Shown in pieces: positions 10,537 to 64,000 of a stretch of DNA of 64,000 bases (its first letter is position 1; every line of letters begins with the position of its first letter). Below the pieces are notes generated by a model, which did no database searches, was not told the DNA's origin, and saw nothing but the letters and a program-made list of their open reading frames with translations. The position numbers were made by a program, and so were the translations under genes. The stretch is from Lachnospiraceae bacterium AC2031 (GTDB lineage Bacteria; Bacillota; Clostridia; Lachnospirales; Lachnospiraceae). The stretch lies in NCBI GenBank assembly GCA_000687975.1, contig JIAB01000001.1, positions 1,852,501 through 1,916,500 of the forward strand, given 5' to 3'.

Positions 10537-10860
10537 TGATTTAATCCCTTCACATGTAGTTCTCTTGAAACAAATCTTTCTTTATCTTAAAACATTTAGT
10601 TTTTTTATACAACCTTATTTAAAAATAATCAAAATCAGGCAACAGAATAGGTGGTAAATGACACTGTAAGAGCATAGAGAAAGAGGTAGAATTACCATTT
10701 ACGACTGTTAAGATTACCATTCGCGACTATTAAGCAACATTTCACTTCAAATTAAGGTTTTCTTAATGTTTGTATTGTATAGTTACACCATAAGTTGATG
10801 AACGGACAGTCAGATGACTGAAAAAGAGAGAATTTAAAATATATAGTGAGGTAAAAAGAT
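10537..10860. other. Intergenic region with a 22-bp tandem repeat
   Basis: No gene is visible in these 324 bases, which separate a minus-strand and a plus-strand gene. They contain two adjacent copies of a 22-bp sequence (10691-10712 and 10713-10734, about three mismatches, core ATTACCATT...CGACT.TTAAG). Two head-to-tail sites one per two helical turns are a plausible binding site for a dimeric regulator of either flanking gene. No convincing promoter is visible. Confidence 0.5.
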
Positions 10861-11073
10861 ATGGATGAAGTATTAGTACACACAGATTTAAGACAAAGAC
10901 TTTTTGATGTAGCAATATATGTTATGCTTTTTATGTTTGCACTTACAATGTGCTTTGTGGGAGTTCTTCATATCGCAGAAGTTAGTATCGGATCAGGAAT
11001 CTGCTATATAATTATCGGATTAGTTGATCTTATAATGATGGGTCTCTACCATAAAGGAGAATTCAGAAATTAG
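10861..11073 (+). CDS. Small two-helix membrane protein
   Basis: The 70-residue protein has two predicted membrane helices (about residues 16-38 and 43-61) and short polar ends. GTGAGG lies eight bases before the ATG, and the leader is well separated from neighbours, which supports real expression. No family is recognised, and it could be a small accessory or stress protein. Confidence 0.6.
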   Translation: MDEVLVHTDLRQRLFDVAIYVMLFMFALTMCFVGVLHIAEVSIGSGICYIIIGLVDLIMMGLYHKGEFRN

Positions 11074-11115
11074 TTTTCCCTCTGAGGGAGTAAAGTTGTT
11101 ATCCCTCTAGATAAT

Positions 11116-11144
11116 ATGACATTCACCTGTGATTGTGATATAAT
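11116..11144 (+). promoter_or_regulatory. Promoter of the L,D-transpeptidase gene
   Basis: ATGACA at 11116-11121 and TATAAT at 11139-11144 are separated by 17 bases, with an extended -10 TGA. Confidence 0.75.
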
Positions 11145-11232
11145 CTGTAATGTGCATTTTAAGGATTGTAACGATTACTGAATGGATTACTTGCTTAGGA
11201 GTTACAATGTTTTCGCAAGGGGTGGATGTCAT

Positions 11233-12309
11233 ATGAATTCTAGATTGATAGTGTATATATTGGATAAAGTGAAGGGAATAGGAATCCTAGCTATATGCAT
11301 AGGGTTCCTGTTTTCTTTGTTATTGGGAATAAATGTAGATGCGGCTGGCAGCTGGACAAAGACAGATGGCCGCTGGTGGTACGACAACGGAGACGGAACT
11401 TATGCCAAGGGTGAGTATATAGATGGTTACTGGCTGGACAGTGATGGCTGGTACAACAGTGCATGGAACGGAAGCTGGAAACACAACTCTAAGGGCTGGT
11501 GGTTCCAGTCTGGAAGCTGGTATCCAACAAGCAGCTGGCTGAAGGTTGACGGCGCATGGTATTACTTTGAAGCGAGTGGATATATGGCTGCTTCCAAATG
11601 GATTGAGCTGGGCGGTGACTGGTACTACATGACTGAGTCAGGAGCCATGGCTGTTTCTACAACCATAGATGGAAAGGAGATTGACGCGTCAGGAAAATGT
11701 ACTTCCATGTCTGCAGATTCTCCAACTATGAATGAACTGGTTTCAGGAAGCAAGACTGCAAAGAAGACAGATCAGATCGTTACAGTCGTTGGCCATGAAT
11801 TAACTTTATGGCAGAAGCAGGCAGATGGAAGCTGGACTGCGGGAGATACCTATTACTGTGGATTCGGACTGAACGGCTTCAGTGATCCAGAGACAAGAGT
11901 GATGGGGGACAAAACAACTCCTAAAGGATCCTTCCCACTGACGTATGCATTTGGCAAGGCAGAAAACCCTGGCACTGCTATGACTTACCGCAGCATCACT
12001 CCAAACTCATATCTTTCTTCCGAGAGAGATACATACAATACCTGGGTTGAGAGTGAGACCAGCATGATCGGTGAGCACTTAATCGATTATTATCAGTATA
12101 AGTATGCAGTTAATATAGGCTTTAATACGGATCCTGTTGTTTATGGAAGGGGAGCTGGAATCTTCCTTCATTGTAAGAGTACGGATCACTGGTATACCAG
12201 CGGATGCGTAAGTCTGGAGGAAGGAAATATGGTTACTGTTCTGAAGCAGCTGAAGAACGGTTCATATATGATCATTGTTGAATATAAGTCGGAGCTTATG
12301 AATTATTAG
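11233..12309 (+). CDS. L,D-transpeptidase (YkuD) with cell-wall-binding repeats
   Basis: This secreted enzyme probably makes 3-3 cross-links in peptidoglycan or attaches proteins to it. The signal peptide ends around VDAAG. About four aromatic wall-binding repeats follow (for example GRWWYDNGDG, GWWFQSGSWYP, GAWYYFEASGYM), then a YkuD catalytic domain with HCKSTDHWYTSGCVSL, where the Cys is the nucleophile and the upstream His its partner. An earlier in-frame ATG at 11182 exists, but AAGGGGTGG stands seven bases before 11233 and the signal peptide begins cleanly there. The following WYL gene starts nine bases after the stop, so the two probably share a transcript. Confidence 0.88.
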   Translation: MNSRLIVYILDKVKGIGILAICIGFLFSLLLGINVDAAGSWTKTDGRWWYDNGDGTYAKGEYIDGYWLDSDGWYNSAWNGSWKHNSKGWWFQSGSWYPTSSWLKVDGAWYYFEASGYMAASKWIELGGDWYYMTESGAMAVSTTIDGKEIDASGKCTSMSADSPTMNELVSGSKTAKKTDQIVTVVGHELTLWQKQADGSWTAGDTYYCGFGLNGFSDPETRVMGDKTTPKGSFPLTYAFGKAENPGTAMTYRSITPNSYLSSERDTYNTWVESETSMIGEHLIDYYQYKYAVNIGFNTDPVVYGRGAGIFLHCKSTDHWYTSGCVSLEEGNMVTVLKQLKNGSYMIIVEYKSELMNY

Positions 12310-12318
12310 AGGTGGCGA

Positions 12319-13305
12319 ATGGCGCGCGGTAAAAATCAGAAGCTTAAAATGTTATATCTGGCAAAGCTTTTTATCGAAAAGACGGATGAGAATCATGGCG
12401 TCACAATGCCTGAGATCATTGAGTATTTAGAGAAAAATGATATCGATGCGCAGAGGAAAAGTATCTACAGTGATATAGATGCGCTGGTGGAGTTTGGCTA
12501 TGACATTATTAAGGAGCAGCGCGGAAAGCAAACCTACTATTTTCTGGCAAGCAGGGATTTTGAAGTCCCTGAGCTGAAGCTTCTGGTTGATGCAATACAG
12601 GCTTCAAGATTTATCACAACACGAAAATCCAGAGAGCTTATTAAGAAGCTGGAGACTCTGGTGAGTGAATACGATGCAAAGCTGCTGGACCGCGAGGTTT
12701 ATGTGGCTGGCCGTATCAAGAACATGAACGAAAGCATTTATTACGGAATAGACGCCATACACAGTGCCCTTAACAATAATCATAAGATCAAGTTCCATTA
12801 TTTTAGATGGAATGTAAAGGGTGAGCAGGAGCTGGGACATGATGGTGAGTACTACGTGGTGAGCCCATGGGCTCTTACCTGGGATAATGAGAACTATTAT
12901 CTTGTGGCTCACGACGAACAGAGTGATCAGCTTCGGCATTACCGTGTTGATAAGATGAAGGAAATTGCAGAGATATCAGAGAAGCGAGCTGGATCTGCTC
13001 TCTTTAAAGATCAGGACAAGGCGGTTTATACGGAAAAACGTTTCAACATGTTTAATGGCGATGTGAAGCGTGTGAAGCTGAAGTGTAAGAACCATTTGTC
13101 AAATGTTATCGTAGATCAGTTCGGTCTCGAAGAGACTATGAGGCCTTGCGATGATGAGCACTTTACAGTGAATGTTGATGTGGCGGTGAGCCCACATTTT
13201 CTCGGCTGGGTTGTGGCCCTTGGCGATGAGATAGAGATTGTTGAACCGGAAGCAGTAGTAAATGAGATGAAAAGTTACCTTGACCGGATAAGGAGTTTAT
13301 ACTAG
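12319..13305 (+). CDS. WYL-domain transcriptional regulator
   Basis: The 328-residue regulator starts with a winged helix-turn-helix of the HTH_11 type (about 8-65), followed by a linker helix region, a WYL domain (about 140-210, with SPWALTWDNENYYLVAHDE and RHYRVDKM) and a C-terminal WCX extension. WYL domains sense nucleic-acid or nucleotide ligands and control diverse genes. It sits tightly between the L,D-transpeptidase and ispE. Its targets cannot be read from the sequence. Confidence 0.88.
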   Translation: MARGKNQKLKMLYLAKLFIEKTDENHGVTMPEIIEYLEKNDIDAQRKSIYSDIDALVEFGYDIIKEQRGKQTYYFLASRDFEVPELKLLVDAIQASRFITTRKSRELIKKLETLVSEYDAKLLDREVYVAGRIKNMNESIYYGIDAIHSALNNNHKIKFHYFRWNVKGEQELGHDGEYYVVSPWALTWDNENYYLVAHDEQSDQLRHYRVDKMKEIAEISEKRAGSALFKDQDKAVYTEKRFNMFNGDVKRVKLKCKNHLSNVIVDQFGLEETMRPCDDEHFTVNVDVAVSPHFLGWVVALGDEIEIVEPEAVVNEMKSYLDRIRSLY

Positions 13306-13316
13306 GGGATAGATAT

Positions 13317-14279
13317 ATGTTAGAAAAGAAAGCGTATGGAAAGGTAAATCTAAGCCTTGATATAGTTGGAAGAAGAGAGGATGGTTATCATCTGGTAAGA
13401 ATGGTAATGCAGTCTCTGGATATATATGATGTACTCGAGTTTGAAAAGCTGGATAGCCCAGAGATAATAGTACTTTTGCAGGATAGCGCTACGGAGGGGG
13501 ATTCTTCGAAGCAGACTGAGTCAGAGGACACTGCTGATAATCTGGGAAGGGTTCCTCTTGATGAAAATAACCTGATATATAAGGCAGCCCGACTTCTCTT
13601 TGAAAGATATATATGGAAAAGAGATAAAAACGCTGGAGTTAGAATAACACTTACAAAGAATATTCCGATTGCGGCTGGTATGGCTGGAGGAAGCAGCGAC
13701 GCAGCGGCTACATTTCGCGGTATAAATGAGCTGTTTGAACTATGTCTTTTTGACAAGGACCTGATGGAAATGGGAGTCACCCTGGGAGCGGATATTCCTT
13801 ACTGCATTATGGGAGGAACTGCTCTGTCAGAGGGTATCGGTGAGGAACTGACCAGACTTCCTGATCTTCCTGAATGTGTGTTCCTGGTTGCGAAACCTAA
13901 GGTTTCAGTATCTACAGCTGAGGCTTACGGAGGTTTTGATTCTCTGGTTGAGACTGTGGATCCGAAAACAGGAAAGAAAGCCCGGATCATTCATCCGGAT
14001 GTGGATGGCCAGGTGGATGCTCTATATGCAGGTAATCTGAAGGGCGTTACAGATAGATTCCTAAATGTTCTTGAATACGTTACAGCTGAAAAGCATGCTG
14101 TAATAGGGGAACTGGAGAAAATAATGCTGGACTTTGGGGCGTTAAATGCTATGATGAGTGGCAGTGGCCCTACAGTTTTTGGTATCTTTGAAAATGAGTC
14201 TCAGGCTGAGGCTGCGAAGAAAGAGATTGAAGCAAGAGAAGGAGCTGACCAGCTATTTGTTGTTAGAGCTTTATCTTAG
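13317..14279 (+). CDS. ispE: 4-diphosphocytidyl-2-C-methyl-D-erythritol kinase
   Basis: This GHMP kinase phosphorylates CDP-methylerythritol in the non-mevalonate isoprenoid pathway. The N-terminal AYGKVNLSLDIVGRREDGYH, the ATP-binding PIAAGMAGGSSDAAA and the C-terminal MMSGSGPTVFGIF are all present. At 320 residues it is longer than usual. The excess is a hydrophilic Ser/Glu/Asp-rich insertion near residues 55-80 and another around 200-225 (ETVDPKTGKKARII), both probably surface loops. It starts 11 bases after the WYL gene and is probably in the same operon. Confidence 0.95.
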   Translation: MLEKKAYGKVNLSLDIVGRREDGYHLVRMVMQSLDIYDVLEFEKLDSPEIIVLLQDSATEGDSSKQTESEDTADNLGRVPLDENNLIYKAARLLFERYIWKRDKNAGVRITLTKNIPIAAGMAGGSSDAAATFRGINELFELCLFDKDLMEMGVTLGADIPYCIMGGTALSEGIGEELTRLPDLPECVFLVAKPKVSVSTAEAYGGFDSLVETVDPKTGKKARIIHPDVDGQVDALYAGNLKGVTDRFLNVLEYVTAEKHAVIGELEKIMLDFGALNAMMSGSGPTVFGIFENESQAEAAKKEIEAREGADQLFVVRALS

Positions 14280-14306
14280 TTTGAATTTTTGAGAAGAGGA
14301 TAAATA

Positions 14307-15572
14307 GTGAGCAGAGAAGACGACAAAAATATACAGCGTCAAGAGTTGGCAAGACGTCGAGAAGCAAAACGTCTTGAAAGAGAGAGGCAGATAAAAAAGC
14401 TTAAGATAATGCTGGCTATCTGCGTCGTTTCTTTTGTGCTGATTGCTGCTGGTGTGGTAGCTCTGATCATTCGTCTTGTTCCGGAAGATGGAGGCAAGTC
14501 TGGAGGGGATAAAGCAGATAGTAGTGTTGATGCTGAAGTTTCTTCGTATTCGGAAAGTACTCAGACAGATGGAGAAGAGGATTCATCCAGGGTATTTAAT
14601 TCCTTTAATGATGAGGGGACTCCAGGAGATGCAGCAGAGTCGCTTGAAAAAGATTTCGACATAGATATGACATTTGTCGGTGACTGCTGTATGGCTACAA
14701 ATCTTGAAGATAGTTCATACGGAACACTTTTATGGTACGAGTCAAATGCGGACACAACCTATTTCTTTAGCGGCGTCCGTTCCTACTTTGATGATGATAT
14801 TACTATAGCAAACTGTGAGAATACATTTTCTGACAGATCTGTTGCTCCAAGAGATAAGGGAGAGGGACCGGCATACTGGTTCAAGTCTCCGGCCTGGTTT
14901 GCAAAGGTTTTTACTGACAATAGCATAGAGGCGGTAACCATCAACAACAATCATACAAATGACTATGGCCCAGAGGTTTTTGAGGATACGAAGGCGGCTC
15001 TTGACGCGGCCGGTGTTCGATGGGGCTTCCGGGATAATATCATTTATTATGAAGAGGAAGGCTTTAAGGTGGGAGTGGTCTGTGTTTCCTACTATTCCTA
15101 CAGTGAGGCGGAAGGCATTCTGCCATATTTGGAGCTTGCTAAGGAGAATTCAGATTTTCAGGTGATCTATTTCCATGGCGGAGTTGAGGGTGCGTATCAG
15201 CCAGAGGACTGGAAGGTGCAGGCCTGCCACATGCTGGTGGATAATGGAGCGGATCTGATCCTGGGGGCACATCCTCATGTTCTTCAGAAGAGGGAGAACT
15301 ATAACGGAGTTGATATAGTTTATTCGCTGGGAAATTTCTGCTTCGGTGGAAATGATAATCCTGTATCGAATAGAACCATAATATATAAGTATAAACTGAA
15401 GGTTCATGAGACTGCTGAAGGCTGTGAAGTGACAGCAAAGGAAGAAGAGATGATACCTTGCTATGTTTATACAGGTAGTACAAATAACTGGCAGCCATAC
15501 CCGATAGAAGATCAGGAAACGGTTGACCGGGTTATAAGATATATGAATGGTGAACTGGATTTACCAAACTAA
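14307..15572 (+). CDS. CapA-like poly-gamma-glutamate synthesis/metallophosphatase-fold protein
   Basis: The 421-residue protein has a cytoplasmic basic start, one membrane helix near residues 31-54, an acidic linker and an extracellular CapA (PGA_cap) domain. Family motifs are DMTFVGDCCMATN, the NNNHTNDYG metal-site region, and GAHPHVLQKRENYNG with YSLGNFCFGG. CapA proteins take part in synthesis or anchoring of poly-gamma-glutamate, but many homologues stand alone, as here, and may act on other surface polymers. The start is GTG, set by GAGAAGAGGA six bases upstream. No capB or capC genes are in the window. Confidence 0.85.
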   Translation: MSREDDKNIQRQELARRREAKRLERERQIKKLKIMLAICVVSFVLIAAGVVALIIRLVPEDGGKSGGDKADSSVDAEVSSYSESTQTDGEEDSSRVFNSFNDEGTPGDAAESLEKDFDIDMTFVGDCCMATNLEDSSYGTLLWYESNADTTYFFSGVRSYFDDDITIANCENTFSDRSVAPRDKGEGPAYWFKSPAWFAKVFTDNSIEAVTINNNHTNDYGPEVFEDTKAALDAAGVRWGFRDNIIYYEEEGFKVGVVCVSYYSYSEAEGILPYLELAKENSDFQVIYFHGGVEGAYQPEDWKVQACHMLVDNGADLILGAHPHVLQKRENYNGVDIVYSLGNFCFGGNDNPVSNRTIIYKYKLKVHETAEGCEVTAKEEEMIPCYVYTGSTNNWQPYPIEDQETVDRVIRYMNGELDLPN

Positions 15573-15576
15573 AAAA

Positions 15577-15603
15577 GTGCAGCGGGGTCCGTCCCCACTG
15601 CAC
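15577..15603. terminator. Hairpin between capA-like gene and tmk
   Basis: The stem GTGCAGCGGGG / CCCCACTGCAC has one mismatch. On the plus strand no T run follows, so tmk may be reached by read-through. On the minus strand it is followed by a T run and would be a good terminator. It resembles other GCAGTGG hairpins in this window. Confidence 0.5.
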
Positions 15604-15616
15604 CAAAGGGGAAGAT

Positions 15617-16246
15617 ATGAGTAGAGGAATATTTATTAGTATGGAGGGACCGGATGGTTCCGGAAAATCAACACAGATAGCGCTCATTAAGGAGTATCTG
15701 GAGCAGGAGGGTAAGGATGTTATAATTACCCGTGAGCCAGGAGGCAACCGAATCAGTGAGGCTATTCGTGAGATCATCTTAAATAAGGATTACACGGAAA
15801 TGTCACCGGTTACAGAGATGATGCTTTACGCAAGTGCCAGAGCACAGCTTATTGCTGAGGTTGTTGGACCAGCTATCGATGCTGGGAAGGCGGTAATATC
15901 TGACAGATTTGTTGACTCTTCTCTTGTATATCAGGGAATGGCACGTGGCCTTGGAGTCGATACAGTATATGAGATCAATAAGGTTGCCATAGGAAAGTAT
16001 ATGCCAGATGTGACATTTCTCCTTGATCTGCCTGCTGAGGTTGGTATCAGCAGAAAGAAGGATCAGAAGGAACTGGACCGAATGGAGATGGAGAGTCTGG
16101 AGTTTCACAAGAAGGTAGCAGAGGGTTACAGAAGCCTTGCAGACAGGTTCCCAGACAGAATCAAAACTGTAGATGCAACTTTGCCTATTGATGAGATATG
16201 TGGTATTATTAAAGCAAGTGTAAAGGACATATTATCTAGCATTTAG
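15617..16246 (+). CDS. tmk: Thymidylate kinase
   Basis: The 209-residue enzyme phosphorylates dTMP to dTDP for DNA synthesis. The P-loop MEGPDGSGKSTQ is at the N-terminus, followed by REPGG (dTMP binding), the DRFVDSSLVYQG motif and the lid region ISRKKDQKELDRME. Length is normal. It opens the conserved cluster tmk-holB-ricT-methyltransferase-rsmI known from many Firmicutes. Confidence 0.97.
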   Translation: MSRGIFISMEGPDGSGKSTQIALIKEYLEQEGKDVIITREPGGNRISEAIREIILNKDYTEMSPVTEMMLYASARAQLIAEVVGPAIDAGKAVISDRFVDSSLVYQGMARGLGVDTVYEINKVAIGKYMPDVTFLLDLPAEVGISRKKDQKELDRMEMESLEFHKKVAEGYRSLADRFPDRIKTVDATLPIDEICGIIKASVKDILSSI

Positions 16247-16281
16247 GTATAAAAGCTTTTGGGGAAAGCGGGGTGAGCAGC

Positions 16282-17268
16282 ATGGATTTTAAAAACATTA
16301 TTGGACACGAGGAAATCATCAGCCGCTTTATGAGCAGCATTGAAACAGACCGAGTGAGTCATGCTTATATAATTGCTGGCGAGGAGGGCAGTGGCAGGTA
16401 TACACTGGCCGAGGCCTTCGCCAAAGCACTTCAGTGTGAAGAAGGTGGTTCAGAAGCTTGTGGACATTGTAAGTCTTGTAAGCAGGCTGAGTCAGATAAT
16501 CACCCTGATATAATTACTGTGGCTCATGATAAGAACACAGTTCTTTCTGTTGATTGTATCAGAACTGAAGTTGTTGATTCCATGGGTATCAAGCCTTACA
16601 GTAGTAAGTATAAGATATATATTATCCGCGATGGTGAGATGATGACAGAGGAGGCAGAGAATGCTCTGCTGAAGACAATCGAGGAGCCACCTGAATATGG
16701 CATAATCATTATCATTACGAAGCAGCTTGAAAAGCTTCTTCCTACGATTCAGTCGCGCTGTGTGATCATTAACACCAAGCCTGTTAAAGAGAAGGATATT
16801 CATGATTATCTTGCTAGTAATTATGGAATATCAGAGGAAAAGATATCATTTGCCATCGAGTATGGTCAGGGAAATCTTGGAAAGGCTATACTTCTTGCAA
16901 CAAACGAGGAGTACGAGGGTCTGGTAAGATCTGTTATTGATCTTGAGTCCAACATCTTTGATATGACTCTTGATGAGATATCTGAGGCGATCAAGAGATG
17001 CGTGAATTATAGAATGAATATTAATGATTATCTGGATCTGATGATGATGTGGTACAGAGATATTCTGGTGCTGAAGGTTACAGGAAATCCGGATAAGATC
17101 CTTTTCAAGGAGCAGTATTCAGTTATAAAAGATCAGGCGAAGTATCTGAGCTTTAACGAGCTGGAGGATAAGTCGCGGGCTATAGAATCAGCTAAGCAGA
17201 GAATAAATGCTCATGCTGATATGGAGGATATTATGAGGCTTCTTATTCTGACTCTTAAGGAGGCGTAA
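16282..17268 (+). CDS. holB: DNA polymerase III delta' subunit
   Basis: This clamp-loader subunit is part of the complex that loads the sliding clamp. The N-terminal AAA+ domain begins IIGHEEIISRF and holds a zinc site with CGHCKSC plus an upstream Cys. The P-loop is degenerate (GEEGSGRYTLA, with Arg where Lys is needed). Non-catalytic delta' subunits commonly show this loss. An in-frame GTG at 16273 also exists. I prefer ATG 16282 because GGGGTGAG stands just before it. Its place between tmk and ricT is the conserved Firmicute order. Confidence 0.92.
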   Translation: MDFKNIIGHEEIISRFMSSIETDRVSHAYIIAGEEGSGRYTLAEAFAKALQCEEGGSEACGHCKSCKQAESDNHPDIITVAHDKNTVLSVDCIRTEVVDSMGIKPYSSKYKIYIIRDGEMMTEEAENALLKTIEEPPEYGIIIIITKQLEKLLPTIQSRCVIINTKPVKEKDIHDYLASNYGISEEKISFAIEYGQGNLGKAILLATNEEYEGLVRSVIDLESNIFDMTLDEISEAIKRCVNYRMNINDYLDLMMMWYRDILVLKVTGNPDKILFKEQYSVIKDQAKYLSFNELEDKSRAIESAKQRINAHADMEDIMRLLILTLKEA

Positions 17269-17323
17269 GTCTTCGGAGTTCTATAGGGAGCAGACTATAG
17301 TAAAGGAGAAAACGAGTTTCATT

Positions 17324-18253
17324 ATGAAGGAAGTAATAGGCGTCAGGTTCAGACCTAATGGCAAGATATACTATTTTGACCCCATTGATTATCATGTCCA
17401 GGTTGGAACCGATGTCATAGTTGAGACGGCCAGGGGAGTAGAATACGGCAAATGTGTTCTCGGCCGAAAAGCAATCGAGGATGAGAAAAGGATAGCAGGT
17501 CTCAAGCCTATCATCCGACTTGCAAATGATGAAGATAAGAAGAAGTTTGAGGCTAATCAGAAGAAGTCCGAGGAAGCTTTTGCAACCTGTGTTAAGAAGA
17601 TAAATGAGCATGGGCTTAAGATGAAGCTTATCTCTGCTGAGTATACATTTGATGGAAGCAAGGTGCTTTTCTACTTCACAGCAGATGGACGTGTTGACTT
17701 CAGAGAATTAGTTAGAGATCTGGCTGGTGTATTCAGAACCAGAATAGAGCTGAGACAGATTGGTGTAAGAGATGAAGCCAAGATATCTGGCGGAATCGGT
17801 ATGTGCGGCAGAGAGCTTTGCTGCAATAGTTACCTGTCAGAGTTTATTCCTGTTTCTATCAAGATGGCTAAGGAGCAGAATCTGTCACTTAATCCAACAA
17901 AGATTTCCGGCGTGTGTGGAAGACTTATGTGCTGTCTCAAGCATGAGCAGGACACATATGAGTATCTTAATTCAAAGATGCCTGGTGTTGGTGATAATGC
18001 AACTACAGCTGAGGGAGTTGTTGGAAAGGTTGAGTCGGTAAATGTTATGCGCCAGACGGTACGTCTCATAATTACTGATGAAGAAGACAACAAGACCATG
18101 GAAGAGTTCAAGGTCGATGAGCTGAAGTTTAAGCCTAGAAAGAAGAAAAAGGACAAGGGTGACAAGCGTCCTAAGGATGCTAAGAGAGATAAGGATCTTG
18201 AGGCTCTCGAAGCGCTTGAAAAGGAAGAGCATTCTGGTCTTGATGACGAATAA
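17324..18253 (+). CDS. ricT: PSP1-domain protein RicT (YaaT)
   Basis: The 309-residue homologue of B. subtilis RicT (YaaT) belongs to the Ric complex, which carries Fe-S clusters and guides RNase Y in mRNA maturation and influences sporulation and competence. The PSP1 region contains the conserved cysteines in GMCGRELCCNSYL and GVCGRLMCCLKHEQD. A charged Lys-rich tail ends the protein. No ricA or ricF is visible nearby. Confidence 0.9.
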   Translation: MKEVIGVRFRPNGKIYYFDPIDYHVQVGTDVIVETARGVEYGKCVLGRKAIEDEKRIAGLKPIIRLANDEDKKKFEANQKKSEEAFATCVKKINEHGLKMKLISAEYTFDGSKVLFYFTADGRVDFRELVRDLAGVFRTRIELRQIGVRDEAKISGGIGMCGRELCCNSYLSEFIPVSIKMAKEQNLSLNPTKISGVCGRLMCCLKHEQDTYEYLNSKMPGVGDNATTAEGVVGKVESVNVMRQTVRLIITDEEDNKTMEEFKVDELKFKPRKKKKDKGDKRPKDAKRDKDLEALEALEKEEHSGLDDE

Positions 18254-18256
18254 GCT

Positions 18257-18994
18257 ATGGGTGATTATATTCTAAAGGAAAATGAAAGAATAGATGATCT
18301 GGATGTAAATGGGTTCCGTATTATACAGAACCCATTTTGCTTCTGTTTTGGAATGGATGCAGTGCTGCTTGCAAACTTTGTAAGGGTCAATCCTAAGGCG
18401 AAGGGCCTTGATATAGGAACAGGTACAGGAGTTGTTCCGTTGATCCTTACGGCAAAAAATCGCGGGGCTCACTGGACAGGTCTTGAGGTGCAGCCTAATA
18501 TGGCTGATATGGCCAGCCGAAGCGTAAAGCTAAATGATGCTGAGGATAAGATATCTATAGTGGAAGGCGATGTGAAAAATGTTCGGGAGTTATTTGAGCC
18601 TGGCCAGTTTGGAGTTATCACATCCAATCCGCCATATATGAAGCCTAACAGTGGACTTCAAAGTGGCAGTGAGACCATCAACATCTCAAGGGCAGAGATA
18701 ATGGCAACCCTTGAAGATGTGGTAAGTGCAGCTTCGTATCTGCTAAAAACAAGCGGTACATTTGCTATGGTCCATAGACCGTCAAGGCTTCCAGAAATTA
18801 TGGATATACTTTTAAAGTACAGGCTGGAGCCTAAAAGAATGCAGCTTGTTCAGCCCACGGTGGACAAGGAAGCAAATCTGGTGCTTATAGAATGTGTGAA
18901 GGAAGCGGGGAAAGAACTGAGGCTCCTTCCAACTTTGATAGTTTACAAGGAAAATGGGGATTATACCGAGGAGCTTCTAAGCTACTATAGGTAG
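18257..18994 (+). CDS. tRNA1(Val) A37 N6-methyltransferase-like protein (YabB/TrmN6 family)
   Basis: The 245-residue SAM-dependent methyltransferase has a SAM-binding motif GLDIGTGTGVVPLIL, an acidic motif-II region and the NPPY motif (SNPPYMKP) of N6-adenine or N5-glutamine methylases. The YabB/TrmN6 family methylates A37 of a valine tRNA in E. coli; here that target is inferred from the family and context. It starts three bases after ricT, and the operon order matches B. subtilis. Confidence 0.88.
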   Translation: MGDYILKENERIDDLDVNGFRIIQNPFCFCFGMDAVLLANFVRVNPKAKGLDIGTGTGVVPLILTAKNRGAHWTGLEVQPNMADMASRSVKLNDAEDKISIVEGDVKNVRELFEPGQFGVITSNPPYMKPNSGLQSGSETINISRAEIMATLEDVVSAASYLLKTSGTFAMVHRPSRLPEIMDILLKYRLEPKRMQLVQPTVDKEANLVLIECVKEAGKELRLLPTLIVYKENGDYTEELLSYYR

Positions 18995-19023
18995 AGATAA
19001 CATTTTGCTGTAATGGAGGTTTT

Positions 19024-19893
19024 ATGGCTGGCATATTATATCTGGTGGCAACTCCTATAGGAAACCTGGAGGATATGACATATAGAGCGGTGAAGGTGCT
19101 GAACGAGGTGGATATCATCGCGGCGGAGGATACTCGTAACAGTATCAAGTTGCTGAACCATTTTGAGATAAAGAAGAGTCTTACCAGCTACCACGAGTTT
19201 AATCGTTATGATAAGGCGGAGTATCTGGTTGAGAAGCTGGAGCAGGGTGAGAATGTGGCGGTGATAACAGATGCTGGTACACCGGGTATTTCGGATCCGG
19301 GCGAGGTTCTGGTGGAGATGTGCTACGACCGCGGAATAAGGGTTGTGCCTGTTCCGGGAGCGGTAGCGGCGGTAAATGCCCTCGTCGCCTCTGGTCAGAA
19401 GACGCGTCGATTTGCATTTGAGGCTTTCCTTCCATTAGAGAAGGATAAAAAATCCAAGAAGGATCTTGAGAGAATACTGGAAGAATTAAAGGCGGAAACC
19501 AGAACGGTTGTGATATATGAGGCACCTCATAGACTTGTCAGTACTCTGGAGCTTTTGAAGAAGGAACTGGGAGAAAGTAGAAGTCTTACAATCTGCAAGG
19601 AACTCACAAAGAAGCATGAAACCTTTCGGAAGACTACTCTTGGAGAGGCCTGCCAGTTTTATCAATCAGAAGAAAATGCACCGCGTGGTGAATATGTTTT
19701 GGTAATCGCTGGAAAGTCTGAAGAAGAGCTGGAGCAGGAGAAAAGGCTTAGCTGGGAAGGGCTCAGTGTTGAAGAACACTTAAGAAGCTACATGGATCAG
19801 GGCGTAGATAAGAAGGAAGCAGTAAAGCTCGTGGCAAAAGAACGTGGGTTAAAGAAACAGGACGTTTATCTCATCGCGGTTAACATAAACTAA
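19024..19893 (+). CDS. rsmI: 16S rRNA (cytidine-1402-2'-O)-methyltransferase
   Basis: The 289-residue SAM-dependent enzyme of the tetrapyrrole-methylase fold methylates C1402 in the ribosomal P site. It has the diagnostic N-terminus LYLVATPIGNLEDMTYRA, AEDTRNSIKLL, the glycine-rich TDAGTPGISDPG and the PVPGAVAAVNAL motif. Length is standard. It ends the tmk cluster. Confidence 0.96.
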   Translation: MAGILYLVATPIGNLEDMTYRAVKVLNEVDIIAAEDTRNSIKLLNHFEIKKSLTSYHEFNRYDKAEYLVEKLEQGENVAVITDAGTPGISDPGEVLVEMCYDRGIRVVPVPGAVAAVNALVASGQKTRRFAFEAFLPLEKDKKSKKDLERILEELKAETRTVVIYEAPHRLVSTLELLKKELGESRSLTICKELTKKHETFRKTTLGEACQFYQSEENAPRGEYVLVIAGKSEEELEQEKRLSWEGLSVEEHLRSYMDQGVDKKEAVKLVAKERGLKKQDVYLIAVNIN

Positions 19894-59401: not shown

Positions 59402-59436
59402 AATGAGTCGCTTTTTGAAAGTGGCTCATTTTTTTA
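59402..59436 (+). terminator. Terminator of rpsT
   Basis: The stem AATGAGTCGCTTT / AAAGTGGCTCATT (wobbles) is followed by seven T. Confidence 0.85.
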
Positions 59437-59520: not shown

Positions 59521-60891
59521 ATGGGTAAACAAACTAAGCAGGATGAGATGGCGAAGCGCCGTGAGGCAGTATTACGTCTGCTGTTGGAAAAACCATATAC
59601 ATATGACGAGCTGGCTGAGAAGCTGGAGCAATCAGTTCGAAACATCAAGTATGATATCAAGGCTCTTCAGGAATCAGGATATGAGATTCCTAAGCATAAG
59701 AAGGGCGTTGGTTATATTATTCCTGAGGAGAAGAAGGAAGAATATCTAAAGAGTCTTGAAGGTTCTGAGACTGGTTCTGGTAAGAATAAGGAAAAGAAAA
59801 GGACTGTCTACAAGCATGTTGTCACTGAGGGTATTGAAAAACTGATCGTTCTTCTGACGCTTCAAAAATCAAAAGAGGGGATGACATTTGACGATCTTTT
59901 TGATGAATATATTGCATTTGCAGATGAGTCGTCTATATTCCTGATGACTAAGGAAGAAAAAGCGAGATTCTACAAGAATAAAAAAGAGACCATCAAGACC
60001 AGATGTGAGGAACTGGTGAGTGGTGGATTTGTTGACTATGACAAGAAGCAAAAAATCTATAGTATCCCTAAGAATGCACCTGTTCTTCTGAATATTGATA
60101 TGGATACAGTAGATGAATATCTGTATGCCATAAGGGCATTTGGTGCCACATATGCTCTGGGGAATAAACTGAAGTCAGTTGAAGAAAAACTGGCTATGAT
60201 TTCTGGAGAGACTCAGCGCAGCGAAGATGATAACTACATAATTGTTGGAAGTAAGATCAATAACAATCCTAAGGTTATGGTGTGTCTGCAGATTCTCGAG
60301 GACATTCCATATGATAGATATGCTATAAAGGTACCAGTTAAAGGAAAGCCTGTTACTATAAAGGTCGGACTTGTGGTTTATACTGCCGACAAGGACAAGC
60401 TCTATATCATAGGAAAGTCGGGAAAGGAAAAGTTCAGGATAATTGATACTGAGGATATGGTGTCCGCAGATGAAAAAGGAGCGATGGAATCTGCTATAGA
60501 GGTGCTCAAGGACACGCCAAATGATATCTATCAGTCACCAGAATATATCCGTATATATAATGAGAGCTTCTCTCTTTCTACTGAGGCGCCTCAGCATGTG
60601 GTGGTAGAAGTAAAAGAATTCGGTAATCTAAGACATAAGTTTGAGGTTCTTAAACTCCAGAGAAACAGGTTCGAAATTCGAAGTGAGATGCAGCCAGCTA
60701 AGATATATCAAAAAGATGACGAGACATTTGTTTACGAAGATGATCTTCGAGGAATGTCTGATTTTGCCAAATATCTTCGAAGATTCGGTAGAAGTGTGAA
60801 GGTTCTGGAACCAGAGAGTCTACGCAAGATGATGCTGGATGATGTGGACCGTTTAGAAGAGGTGTATAGAAAAGAGGGGCTGTATGAATAA
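59521..60891 (+). CDS. Divergent HTH-WYL regulator A
   Basis: The 456-residue protein has an N-terminal winged helix-turn-helix (about 10-65, YTYDELAEKLEQSVRNIKYDI) and a charged linker. A middle helical region (about 95-180) is not seen in ordinary WYL regulators. It resembles a second HTH-like segment (GMTFDDLFDEYIAF). A WYL-like domain (about 245-320, LVVYTADKDKLYIIGKSG) has LYI in place of WYL, and a C-terminal WCX-like part ends the protein. GAGGAAT precedes the start. Its end overlaps the next regulator by eight bases. Targets are unknown. Confidence 0.72.
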   Translation: MGKQTKQDEMAKRREAVLRLLLEKPYTYDELAEKLEQSVRNIKYDIKALQESGYEIPKHKKGVGYIIPEEKKEEYLKSLEGSETGSGKNKEKKRTVYKHVVTEGIEKLIVLLTLQKSKEGMTFDDLFDEYIAFADESSIFLMTKEEKARFYKNKKETIKTRCEELVSGGFVDYDKKQKIYSIPKNAPVLLNIDMDTVDEYLYAIRAFGATYALGNKLKSVEEKLAMISGETQRSEDDNYIIVGSKINNNPKVMVCLQILEDIPYDRYAIKVPVKGKPVTIKVGLVVYTADKDKLYIIGKSGKEKFRIIDTEDMVSADEKGAMESAIEVLKDTPNDIYQSPEYIRIYNESFSLSTEAPQHVVVEVKEFGNLRHKFEVLKLQRNRFEIRSEMQPAKIYQKDDETFVYEDDLRGMSDFAKYLRRFGRSVKVLEPESLRKMMLDDVDRLEEVYRKEGLYE

Positions 60892-61927
60892 GCTGATAAG
60901 TAATAATCTGCTGAGACTGCAGCATGAGATGACATTTTTAAAGGATGAAGGCATTACGCCGGAGGGGCTTGCTGCAATTCTCGGAGTAAGTAAAAGTATA
61001 ATTTACGATGATATCATTGCACTCAACAATGAACCGAATTTTCCGCTGTTGATAAACCTGACTCCAGATAAACTTAAGGAATTTAAGAAGCAAAAAAATA
61101 AAAATCTGGATGAAAAAGATTTAAAAATAAAAGATTCAGAATACTTTGATGATAGTAGCGAAGAACTACTAACTGATCCGAAGTTTGCATCTGTTCTAAA
61201 AAGTGGAGCTTATGATGACTGCCTGTTTCGCTATGATACACTAAGTGAGACTGTAGAAGTTATGCTCACTTCAGATGAGGTTGATACACTGAATAGTTTC
61301 CTAAATAAGGAAGATGGTGCAAGGGCATTTTTTGTGAAGAATAGTAACCGTCTTCGTGCTATAGACCAGGTGGATATGGTAAATTATCTGCTGGAGGTAA
61401 TAAAGGATGGAAGCAGTATCGACTTTAGTTATAAAGCTAAATCGAAGATAATAAAGAAGACAATTCGTCCGATCAAGATCATTCATAACACCACGGAAGA
61501 TACTTATTATGTATTCGATCATAAGGGAGTATCCTACAACATGGATAAGATCTTCACTGCCAGCGTTAAGGATTCAAATGTGAAGCAGAACATTGCCCGT
61601 AACATCGATGAGAAACGTTTCGAAAAGATGTGGGGAGTTAACTACTCTGAGAAGGGCGTAAAAGTAAAGCTCAAGATATTCAATGAGGGCAAGGTGATCG
61701 AACGAGTTAAGAACGACCTTGGCTCAAAACTAAATGATAATAACTTCAAGTTCTTCGAAGAAAATGGAACTGAATATGCCATTTTCGAAGATGAAGTGAT
61801 TGGTACAGAAGTTTTTCTCTCATGGGTTTATAGTTACGGTGCCTCTATGGTACTTCTTGAACCAAGGGAACTTGTTGATAAAGTAATAGACTCCATAGAG
61901 CAAAGAAAACTGGAAGCAAAACAATAA
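60884..61927 (+). CDS. Divergent HTH-WYL regulator B
   Basis: The 347-residue relative of regulator A has an N-terminal HTH (about 8-50, GITPEGLAAILGVSKSIIYDDI), a charged Lys/Asp linker, a WYL-like domain (about 165-230, IRPIKIIHNTTEDTYYVFDH) with changed core residues, and a WCX domain (about 255-345, GTEVFLSWVYSYGASMVLLEP). It overlaps regulator A by eight bases and therefore is translationally coupled. The two may act as a heterodimer. Confidence 0.75.
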   Translation: MNKLISNNLLRLQHEMTFLKDEGITPEGLAAILGVSKSIIYDDIIALNNEPNFPLLINLTPDKLKEFKKQKNKNLDEKDLKIKDSEYFDDSSEELLTDPKFASVLKSGAYDDCLFRYDTLSETVEVMLTSDEVDTLNSFLNKEDGARAFFVKNSNRLRAIDQVDMVNYLLEVIKDGSSIDFSYKAKSKIIKKTIRPIKIIHNTTEDTYYVFDHKGVSYNMDKIFTASVKDSNVKQNIARNIDEKRFEKMWGVNYSEKGVKVKLKIFNEGKVIERVKNDLGSKLNDNNFKFFEENGTEYAIFEDEVIGTEVFLSWVYSYGASMVLLEPRELVDKVIDSIEQRKLEAKQ

Positions 61928-61951
61928 GAAAAATAAAGTAGAAGGAAAAGT

Positions 61952-64000
61952 ATGGAACAGGAAAGAAAGTTAAGAATTATATCATTGGATGAATCAGGAG
62001 AATTTGAAAGATTTCTCTCCGATGATATCCGTTTTATAGGGGGACTGATAATAGATAAACCCCTTCCTGAAAATGCCAAAACTGATAATATAGTTGCAAA
62101 TGTCAGGAAAGAAATAAGAAGTGAACTTACCAGATTAACTGAGGAGTACAATAGGCTCCTTGAAGAGAAGGAATTCCTTTTTGAGGATAAAGAGGTAATA
62201 GTTAAGTACCCTGAGAGTCTTCATATGTCGGATTCAAATACATATTATTCGAAGAATGGTGTGGGAATCAAGAAGGCAAAACTTGAGAAGAAACTCCGTG
62301 CGGAAGAAATACTGCCTTTCTCTATGTGGATGAAAGAAAGAAGTATGGAATTCATCAAGGAAATGGGCTATGGAATCTATGCATATATTTATCCTTTTGG
62401 TGATAACTTTGTAAATGTCGAAGGTGTGGAAAGTAACTTAGGTGCAGCGGATTATGCATCACATCTATATTCCAGAATGTCTACAGTTTCAATGTTTAAT
62501 ACAGTGTTCTATATGTTTGATGATAGCTTCACTGATTACTCTCTTCAGTTTGCACAGCGTTCACTTGTATTTTCAGGTCTTACAAACGACAGAGAGCGTG
62601 AGGTAAATCAGGGACTTAGCAAAGAGTATGCTAAGCATATTGTTGTTGAAAAAGGACCAAATGACAGAGAAAAGAAATCCACCATATATACCATTACAAA
62701 TGTAAGCTCCTACAGAACTTCGCTCACAGATGAGATATATGGTTCGGAGCTGACAGGTGGTTATAAGAATAAGAGTTACTATCTGGGAGTTGACTCCATA
62801 GATTATTCTGGCAAGAAGGATATGGCTATTCATTATCTCACTGATATTCTGTGCAGTCATATTAGAAATACCATAGATAGACTTAATTCGAAAAATGAGA
62901 TCTACAATGACACAGCAGAACTGATCCAGCAGGAACTAGGCGCTGAGGTTGGAGATAGTACTGTAGATATAAGATTCTACTCCAAGGCAGATGCAGATTT
63001 CAGAAAGATATATCGACATATCATGCTGGGTGATCTGGCTAAGGCTTTCGATGCCGAATTCGATTTCAGCCTTGTAAGCCGCAGCGTGGATGAGAGCGAT
63101 GACGCAGATTATGTCAGAGAAAATATCCTGAGTAAGTACTATGAGCAAGAGTTTGCTCCAAGACTAGATGCTTATATTGAGAGCCTCCTTGCAGATGAAA
63201 AGTATTACGCTGATATTATCTCAAGATACGACGAGTACGTAAGTTACGCAGAACGTTTCATGGGTAAGGATGGAAATCTTGGTTATAACCGAGGTCTCCA
63301 TATTGCCGAAAGGCTGATTGAAGTCTTTGATAAGCTTCGTGCTATAGAGGAGTCAAAGCCTCGGGAGGACAGAGTTATCTTCGATAGAAAGATTGGGGAG
63401 ATAACATTTAGATTAAATGATATCCGCCTCCGTGGTCTTAATCATAAGGGAGTGGTGCGTGGACTGCTGCCTGTGATCGATAAATGTAACGAAAATAAGC
63501 TTTATATTTCACCAATGGATTATATTCATTTTAAGACAAGGGCGGCTCAGCTTTACTTCAATTCCTTTGAGTATGTGAAGGTGAAGGATCTTTTTATTGA
63601 CGATGTATGGCCAAGAATCTTTGCAGAAAATGCCAAAAAGAATATTGATATCGGCAGTTCCGAGACTCTGATTGAGCAGCTGGAAATGGTTATGGCAGGC
63701 TTAACTGGAATCGAGAATACAACACAGGTTGTTTCCGGAAAGATCTTCAGTACTTTGGGACAGGCCTATGCTTTTATGGGCGACGAAAGTATTTCAGAGA
63801 ACTGGTTTGAATCGGCGCTGGAAAAATGGTCTGGAGACGTTGCCAATCAGAATATCACTCTGTCATATCTGATGAATCTCTATGTGGATACAGCAAATAT
63901 GGGTGGGTATGAGAAATATGCACCGCAGTACTTTGGATTTTTTGATACAAAGGGCCTGGGCTGCGACAGTGTGGCTGGACAGCTGAAGGTTCTGAAGGAA
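61952..64000 (+). CDS. Large protein with DUF3800-like start, cut by window end
   Basis: The frame is open from ATG 61952 (AGAAGGAAA upstream) to the window edge, 683 codons without stop. The start IISLDESGEFERF followed by IRFIGGLIIDK resembles the first two strands of DUF3800 RNase-H-fold proteins, where DESG supplies an acidic metal ligand. AIHYLTDILCSHIRNTI (near residue 295) could match the later conserved Asp helix. The rest (from about residue 480) is helical and repeat-like (FSTLGQAYAFMGDESISENWFESAL), suggesting TPR-type repeats. It lies 24 bases after regulator B in one operon. The function is unknown; the family link is tentative. Confidence 0.65.
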   Translation, partial: MEQERKLRIISLDESGEFERFLSDDIRFIGGLIIDKPLPENAKTDNIVANVRKEIRSELTRLTEEYNRLLEEKEFLFEDKEVIVKYPESLHMSDSNTYYSKNGVGIKKAKLEKKLRAEEILPFSMWMKERSMEFIKEMGYGIYAYIYPFGDNFVNVEGVESNLGAADYASHLYSRMSTVSMFNTVFYMFDDSFTDYSLQFAQRSLVFSGLTNDREREVNQGLSKEYAKHIVVEKGPNDREKKSTIYTITNVSSYRTSLTDEIYGSELTGGYKNKSYYLGVDSIDYSGKKDMAIHYLTDILCSHIRNTIDRLNSKNEIYNDTAELIQQELGAEVGDSTVDIRFYSKADADFRKIYRHIMLGDLAKAFDAEFDFSLVSRSVDESDDADYVRENILSKYYEQEFAPRLDAYIESLLADEKYYADIISRYDEYVSYAERFMGKDGNLGYNRGLHIAERLIEVFDKLRAIEESKPREDRVIFDRKIGEITFRLNDIRLRGLNHKGVVRGLLPVIDKCNENKLYISPMDYIHFKTRAAQLYFNSFEYVKVKDLFIDDVWPRIFAENAKKNIDIGSSETLIEQLEMVMAGLTGIENTTQVVSGKIFSTLGQAYAFMGDESISENWFESALEKWSGDVANQNITLSYLMNLYVDTANMGGYEKYAPQYFGFFDTKGLGCDSVAGQLKVLKE

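Follow-up and report, generated by a model that had tools for sequence, protein, structure and literature searches.

Introduction

A protein that joins TPR to a DUF3800 domain goes with a sub-branch of Cas12a2 and was assigned an RNase-H fold with a catalytic rearrangement by AlphaFold2 (main text of Altae-Tran et al. 2023, PMC10910872). DUF3800 is also described in some VI-F and V-A2 loci by Makarova et al. 2025, in passages that treat WYL genes as dispensable type VI parts (PMC12669027), and WYL1 of type VI-D stimulates Cas13d and binds single-stranded RNA (as cited in PMC9122601). Here we describe a locus at the end of a 64,000-nucleotide stretch of DNA, the window, from Lachnospiraceae bacterium AC2031 (contig JIAB01000001.1, positions 1,852,501 to 1,916,500), in which two genes for WYL-type regulators, WYL1 and WYL2, precede a gene for a large protein with a DUF3800-like N-terminal part. 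We are moderately confident that this large protein serves RNA-targeting immune effectors as a portable accessory nuclease and is itself under WYL control; its presence beside a STAND-type protein without CRISPR here, and beside Cas13 in relatives, suggests a spare part moving between bacterial immune systems.

Likened by description, the Cas12a2 (V-A2) protein of PMC10910872 resembles that of AC2031 in its DUF3800-type domain with TPR and as an accessory beside an RNA-triggered class 2 effector, but the present family lies beside Cas13a, Cas13d, Mokosh-like or STAND-type genes, and in AC2031 it has a WYL pair in front and no CRISPR part found within the search described below. The VI-F/V-A2 DUF3800-family nuclease, again likened by description, is like the present family an accessory to a type VI effector, but in the passages of PMC12669027 it is reported for VI-F (one genus, Brachyspira) and V-A2, not for VI-A or VI-D. 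Csx27 and Csx28 of Cas13b, named in the same passages, are effector-linked proteins that augment Cas13 immunity and would be alike in function; Csx28 differs in forming a membrane pore. The type VI-D WYL1 (as cited in PMC9122601) has counterparts in the WYL proteins of the Cas13 loci of two relatives, G004 and G236; unlike it, the WYL genes here come as two adjacent genes, in Cas13a loci or without Cas13, and tblastn found none near the Cas13d gene of a third relative, G1038. DUF3800 beside Cas12a2 and in VI-F has thus been reported already, whereas the open literature on DUF3800, in main-text passages without figures, supplements or most subscription papers, yielded no VI-A, VI-D or STAND partner, and the main text of PMC10910872 contains no mention of 'Cas13a' or 'VI-A'.

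A WYL pair and a large DUF3800-like protein

The three genes lie on the forward strand as WYL1 (456 amino acids, 59521..60891), WYL2 (347 amino acids, 60884..61927) and the large protein (DUF3800-like plus helical, TPR-like; 854 amino acids, 61952..64000, continuing to 64516), the last recognised from its open reading frame, motifs and homologs in Cas13a, Cas13d and Mokosh-like loci. A preliminary description of the window, made from its letters alone, had given the coordinates, an overlap of 8 bases between the WYL genes, 24 bases from WYL2 to an ATG frame at 61952 and at least 683 codons open to the window end at 64000, all of which were borne out by the open reading frame check. Read past the window on the same chromosome (locus L001, where window coordinate = L001 + 58999 and the overlap is identical in sequence), the third gene ends at the window equivalent of 64516, and a small open reading frame and then a STAND-type gene follow. 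Upstream are two genes that we take to be holA and rpsT by resemblance. A scan for terminator-like hairpins (13 found against 6.5 expected in shuffles) placed one on the forward strand 3' of rpsT, between the trio and the preceding gene (59402..59430, L001 403-431; 13 pairs and a T tail, a consensus match only), and another 3' of the 854-residue gene. Because of these two hairpins, WYL1-WYL2-DUF3800 looks like a single transcription unit.

The DESG motif of the large protein occupies residues 13-16. Seven residues of the first part (D13, E14, F18, G31, H91, Y173 and D298) do not vary across an alignment of ten full-length homologs, nine of which matched a YLADxICS-type pattern (G1063 is the exception). 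The family thus has the motif order of DUF3800 proteins, an N-terminal DES or DE, then H, then hydrophobic-xxD-x-hydrophobic. Pfam-type DUF3800 proteins occur in 20 of 100 genomes of the bacterial family and so are frequent there; among 13 short members all have the DE motif at the start and 12 a LFQVADLICT-like motif near the end, with the xxxD motif common to these and the large-protein family. When the two profiles were compared, DESG aligned to DESG (E 1.3e-4 for this single comparison, probability 54%), and the C-terminal part, as a control, gave a probability of 0.2%. From the shared motifs and the match in the DESG register, the N-terminal part is DUF3800-like by motif and not by family hit, the Pfam model being unmatched, and the protein is a putative nuclease. 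The DUF3800-like start and repeat-like continuation proposed in the preliminary description stand in part: motif and profile resemblance and the relatives favour the former, while Pfam searches run on the large protein matched neither the DUF3800 nor the TPR model. The helical C-terminal half finds agreement only in the secondary structure predicted by a model of low confidence (pLDDT 39). Pfam, PADLOC, NCBIfam and PHROGs gave the large protein no family below E 0.03, the Pfam DUF3800 cut-off was not reached anywhere in the AC2031 genome scan, and a solved-structure search with the family profile returned one de novo protein at chance level (E 0.11).

Homologs lie beside Cas13 and other immune genes

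The full-length protein was found in 12 genomes, in a Cas13a locus in six (five genera), beside Cas13d in one, in a Mokosh-like locus in one, beside a STAND-type gene in three and in another setting in one. With seven of the 12 in Cas13 loci, the relatives support the defence role and the type VI CRISPR lead of the preliminary description. Cas13a was identified at E 8e-161 or better throughout, and Cas13a plus an array, the make-up of type VI-A, occurs in G177, G161, G004, G352 and G366.

Gene order varies among the six Cas13a loci. G177 (L011) has an unassigned gene (671 amino acids), a kinase gene, the DUF3800-like gene, Cas13a, cas1, cas2 and an array of ten repeats, and G161 (L014) has an array, two DUF4230 genes, the DUF3800-like gene, Cas13a, a second array, cas1 and cas2. 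In G004 (L015) an array is followed by Cas13a, the DUF3800-like gene, WYL1, WYL2 and an array, with 4-base overlaps from each of the four genes to the next, and cas1-cas2 adjoin the same repeat at another contig end (L045). The DUF3800-like gene and Cas13a of G236 (L029) are followed by WYL2-like, WYL1-like, cas2 and cas1 genes on the other strand, with no array called in the fetched stretch. G352 (L030) reads array, cas1, cas2, an unassigned gene, a kinase-like gene, the DUF3800-like gene and Cas13a; G366 (L031) reads Cas13a with a long N-terminal extension, a gene for a 638-residue protein with Cas1 similarity, an array and the DUF3800-like gene, so that cas1 and the array lie between Cas13a and the DUF3800-like gene.

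Outside these loci, G1038 (L104), from another family of the class, has the DUF3800-like gene 220 bases from Cas13d (E 2.3e-226), with an array about 4 kb on, and in G1063 (L105) it lies beside two kinase genes, a MkoA-like helicase gene (E 9.5e-123) and a weakly MkoB-like gene. In G700 (L034) it is divergent from a WYL1-WYL2 pair and followed by genes for 174 and 525 amino acids, the latter, two genes on, with an RNx4H motif and a weak HEPN_AbiU2 match below cut-off. AC2031, G155 and G180 have the STAND-type partner; the G180 protein, counted as one gene split by contig ends from two pieces (69-residue overlap, 97%), is about 40% identical to that of AC2031 in its C-terminal part. The DUF3800-like gene recurs beside proteins with RNx3-4H motifs. 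We do not claim that all partners are HEPN RNases; the MkoA-like helicase and a DUF4145 protein of G1029 lack the motif. G1029 was itself dropped from the 12, its match being confined to the helical part (E 6e-5), as were G384 and a second match in G352, which are kinase-TPR proteins only. The G1029 locus (L106:8685-13368) holds a DESG-starting protein with weak TPR matches, then the 844-residue DUF4145 protein.

Several further features were seen at these loci. In two Cas13a loci of different genera, an unassigned protein and a kinase-like protein with a TPR-like C-terminal part lie 5' of the DUF3800-like gene (L011:4213-8361 and L030:4272-7788), with relatives in G384 (L032:3470-5719 and 10827-12985), where Cas13a was not found. 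DUF4230 proteins lie beside the G161 Cas13a locus (L014:7311-8724) and, by similarity only, near the G1038 Cas13d locus (L104:4518-5315). The G366 Cas13a has about 400 extra N-terminal residues and adjoins the 638-residue protein, Cas1-like in its C-terminal part (L031:12259-14175 and 14200-19335), which is possibly a reverse transcriptase fusion such as the RT-Cas1 reported in VI-A loci in the passages of PMC6753606.

The protein is rare. Counting AC2031, with draws that partly overlap, it was present in 5 of 61 genomes of the genus, and in further draws in 2 of 150, 2 of 295, 6 of 397 (one kinase-TPR only) and 4 of 391 (one weak); presence is patchy, in keeping with the variable presence that the preliminary description had tied to a defence role. 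The family was not found in plasmids or phages by tblastn, nor in viral contigs with six peptide patterns for each of three family proteins, the alignment offering no stretch conserved enough for a pattern; among genome contigs the sole match to six peptide patterns was a 99% copy in the metagenome-assembled genome RUG10561.

The association was also examined from the side of Cas13a, which was present in 2 of 61 genus genomes and 6 of 394 family-draw genomes, six of these eight having the DUF3800-like gene in the locus. The gap between the two genes was 21-55 bases in four of the six loci, and in one they overlapped by 4 bases. Fisher's test on presence gave p 7.6e-8 for the family draw (four genomes with both, one with the protein only, two with Cas13a only; the 394-genome draw, which differs from that of 397) and p 0.0055 for the genus. 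These p values overstate independence because the genomes are related, and the tight spacing (4-base overlap to 55-base gap, five of six) is the better evidence. The other two genomes, G336 and G347, have Cas13a without the DUF3800-like gene in the fetched stretch. Directly behind their Cas13a genes is a CorA-like gene (L043:5885-7570, reverse strand, and L044:11971-13566, forward strand), and another lies 4 kb from the DUF3800-like gene in G700 (L034:3001-4659, reverse strand; PADLOC CorA E 2e-10, 5e-15 and 7e-8, respectively); the CorA-like protein may be an alternative membrane accessory of Cas13a.

A probable STAND-type partner in AC2031

Downstream of the 854-residue gene lie a 102-codon open reading frame, a frame of 1492 codons, a gene for a 710-residue protein (P0005) and further genes. 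The ninth codon of the 1492-codon frame matches the start of the G180 homolog, giving a STAND-like protein of 1484 amino acids (P0004). In common with STAND/NACHT-type immune NTPases it has a P-loop (GTGKT) and a DGIDE Walker B (LVLVVDGIDE), both unaltered in G155 and each altered at one position in G180; unlike them it reaches Pfam STAND-type models below cut-off only (NPHP3_N 20.9 bits against 24.8, AAA_22 17.9 against 27), and its N-terminus is HEPN-like by motif only. That motif, RNEVIGH near the N-terminus (RNETIGH in G180), is of the RNx4H type and fits the R-x4-6-H pattern, so that the N-terminal part may be called HEPN-like at the motif level only. Identity to the G180 homolog in blocks of 100 residues is 40-55% over the first 700 residues and 15-34% in later blocks, the pattern that a conserved effector-NTPase with a fast-changing sensor would give.

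Exchange of the large protein between species and partners

In a tree of eleven copies of the DUF3800-like protein, G180 being left out, the AC2031 and G155 copies, both with STAND partners, group with that of G177 (Cas13a) and then that of G161 (Cas13a), with support of 100/99 at both forks. Compared in 500-base steps, the DNA of AC2031 and that of the sister species G155 are 69-86% identical between 54.5 kb and the WYL genes, these included. At about 62000, near codon 17 of the DUF3800-like gene, identity rises to 95-99% and stays at that level within the STAND gene until the G155 contig stops, a block that covers the DUF3800-like gene and no less than the first 1.9 kb of the STAND gene. From this step in identity, the DUF3800-like gene and the start of the STAND gene were recently exchanged between the two species, behind resident regulators.

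The AC2031 genome has no cas1, no Cas13a and no array with the repeat core used as query (the genome-wide search being confined to these), and within that scope neither a class 2 effector locus nor a type VI-A locus of Cas13a and array was found in it. No array relic near the trio was seen in the window or in L001, L010, L012 and L013, allowing up to 6 changes in the 26-base core.

The WYL pair and the large protein do not always go together

WCX is above the Pfam cut-off in both regulators, HTH_11 is above it in WYL1 and below it in WYL2, and PADLOC WYL matched both (E 1.5e-10 and 7e-16, respectively), while the Pfam WYL model itself matched neither. The HTH-WYL identity given to them in the preliminary description therefore holds by WCX and PADLOC, and falls short in the Pfam WYL model and the HTH of WYL2. 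PafBC is an HTH-WYL-WCX heterodimer (PMC11804915, PMC9122601), so that adjacent WYL pairs are known already, and AC2031 likewise has two adjacent genes of that make-up, the HTH of WYL2 being below cut-off. A pair of the PafBC type would be expected to form a heterodimer, bind single-stranded DNA and activate transcription; no named PafBC chain was matched, however, by the WYL2 profile, which found no solved structure, or by the WYL1 profile, which found HTH chains (E 0.003-0.08) and other WYL-domain chains (E 0.02-0.08). Searched as single sequences against solved structures, WYL1 matched only two HTH chains (E 0.035-0.6) and WYL2 none.

The nearest relatives of the pair, at 51 and 59%, are in G176, whose WYL1 is the closest homolog within the genus outside G155. 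The G176 pair lies behind a cas2 gene end (55% over 53 amino acids, E 6e-21) and an array that has five repeats and one decayed repeat, the contig stopping behind WYL2, and the repeat core fits a pattern that otherwise matches just G161 and G177 among the 61 genus genomes. Trees support the clade with G176 at 100/99 for WYL1 and 91/82 for WYL2, in which several rows, including G176, have an unusual residue make-up and the G004, G236 and G700 proteins are long branches. Other pairs in the genus resemble the AC2031 pair more closely than the G004 pair does.

The preliminary description had regarded the WYL pair as fixed to the large protein, and this did not hold. WYL pairs accompany the DUF3800-like gene in AC2031, G155, G004, G236 and G700, and a single WYL gene lies behind the STAND gene in G180, but tblastn with 29 WYL proteins (E 1e-3) found none in the 19-20 kb stretches that hold the homologs in G177, G161, G352, G366, G1038 and G1063. 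Conversely, none of 11 WYL1-like loci of the genus (stretches of 3-20 kb, several ended by contig ends) held a DUF3800- or Cas13a-like gene, and one of the 11 follows a cas2 end and array.

Weighing the accessory reading against its alternatives

The reading of the large protein as a portable accessory nuclease draws on co-localisation, the shared motifs (invariant D, E, H and D), the exchange and the grouping in the tree. In the mechanism that we envisage, the STAND protein with its HEPN-like RNx4H motif or, elsewhere, Cas13 would sense phage and turn into an RNase. The helical part might dock the accessory onto the effector or the effector's product, whereupon the DUF3800-like domain would cleave nucleic acid (RNA, RNA/DNA hybrid or single-stranded DNA), so that the infected cell's growth arrest deepens. 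By analogy with other WYL proteins, which bind nucleic acid in single-stranded form, the pair may hold the operon low or turn it on under attack.

Several observations weigh against this reading. Pfam DUF3800 (PF12686) was unmatched by the large protein and four homologs (five members scanned), the DUF3800 profile comparison is weak and covers about 100 columns only, and an AlphaFold2 single-sequence model of the L009 protein had a mean pLDDT of 39, too low for a fold. The HEPN assignment of P0004 rests on one motif, no Pfam HEPN model matching; RNx4H-type motifs arose in 11 of 2000 shuffles and are carried within the first 250 residues by 10 of 177 open reading frames of at least 300 amino acids in the fetched loci, and the AlphaFold2 model of the STAND N-terminal part (pLDDT 36) was too low for a fold. 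Few genomes support the association, and phage records contained nothing that matched the G161 array. On the tree, three changes of the Cas13 label are required, and 231 of 500 shuffles reach as few, so partners are not clustered by kinship; partner swapping would thus be frequent, its direction being a matter of inference.

A terminator-like hairpin of 16 pairs with a T tail, directly behind the DUF3800-like gene and before the STAND gene in AC2031 and present also in G155, counts against the accessory reading too, since the two genes are possibly separate units. It favours an alternative in which WYL1-WYL2-DUF3800 is self-contained, the STAND gene a mere neighbour in a defence hotspot and the effect due to the DUF3800-like protein alone under WYL control, as do the roughly 520 bases between the two genes in AC2031 and the WYL pair and DUF3800-like gene of G700, where no STAND or Cas13a gene was recognised. 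We find this rather doubtful, however, as G180 keeps the two genes about 65 bases apart and AC2031 and G155 share them in one exchanged block.

A second alternative, that the protein serves the effector by processing or degrading guide or cleaved RNA, or restrains the RNase in the manner of an antidote, and in AC2031 restrains or cleans up after the STAND protein, accords with the interference or crRNA (CRISPR RNA) biogenesis or degradation suggested for the Cas12a2-linked TPR-DUF3800 protein in the main text of Altae-Tran et al. (PMC10910872). The tight coupling with Cas13a and the recurrence beside RNx3-4H proteins would fit it equally. We nonetheless judge it unlikely: Cas13a matures its own guides, and the DUF3800-like protein is kept in three genomes that lack cas1, Cas13a and a matching array and so have no such guide to process. 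That the trio is a stress (DNA damage) operon under WYL control and unrelated to phage, as the action of PafBC in the DNA damage response (PMC11804915) and the genes not recognised as defence that adjoin similar WYL genes in the genus might suggest, is highly improbable given the homologs in Cas13 loci, the patchy presence and the recent exchange between species.

Beyond the portable accessory nuclease, we put forward, tentatively and as the less probable extension, that the DUF3800-TPR protein amplifies the action of HEPN ribonucleases in general and moves between adaptive and innate immunity, and that a VI-A locus in the AC2031 lineage shed Cas13a, Cas1, Cas2 and the array but retained the amplifier together with the WYL switch, a HEPN-STAND sensor taking over from the guide-directed one. 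Were this so, one accessory would serve guide-directed systems (Cas13a, Cas13d and, by report, Cas12a2) as well as guide-free ones (STAND, Mokosh-like), which would point to a shared intermediate read by the accessory, either the RNase once activated or the RNA that it produces. Cas13a, which is in wide use as a tool, would gain a natural partner that possibly alters its collateral activity, and the locus would offer an example in which the reuse of a CRISPR accessory by an innate system can be traced.

Further genes downstream

The small open reading frame between the DUF3800-like and STAND genes (L001:5679-5987, 102 codons) has one hydrophobic stretch and is missing in G155 through an indel of about 300 bases. 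P0005 (L001:10624-12756) has a VirD4/TraG-like (T4SS-DNA_transf-like) N-terminal part and a ClpX-like AAA C-terminal part, and close to the G700 locus is a relative with 44% identity across about 290 residues.

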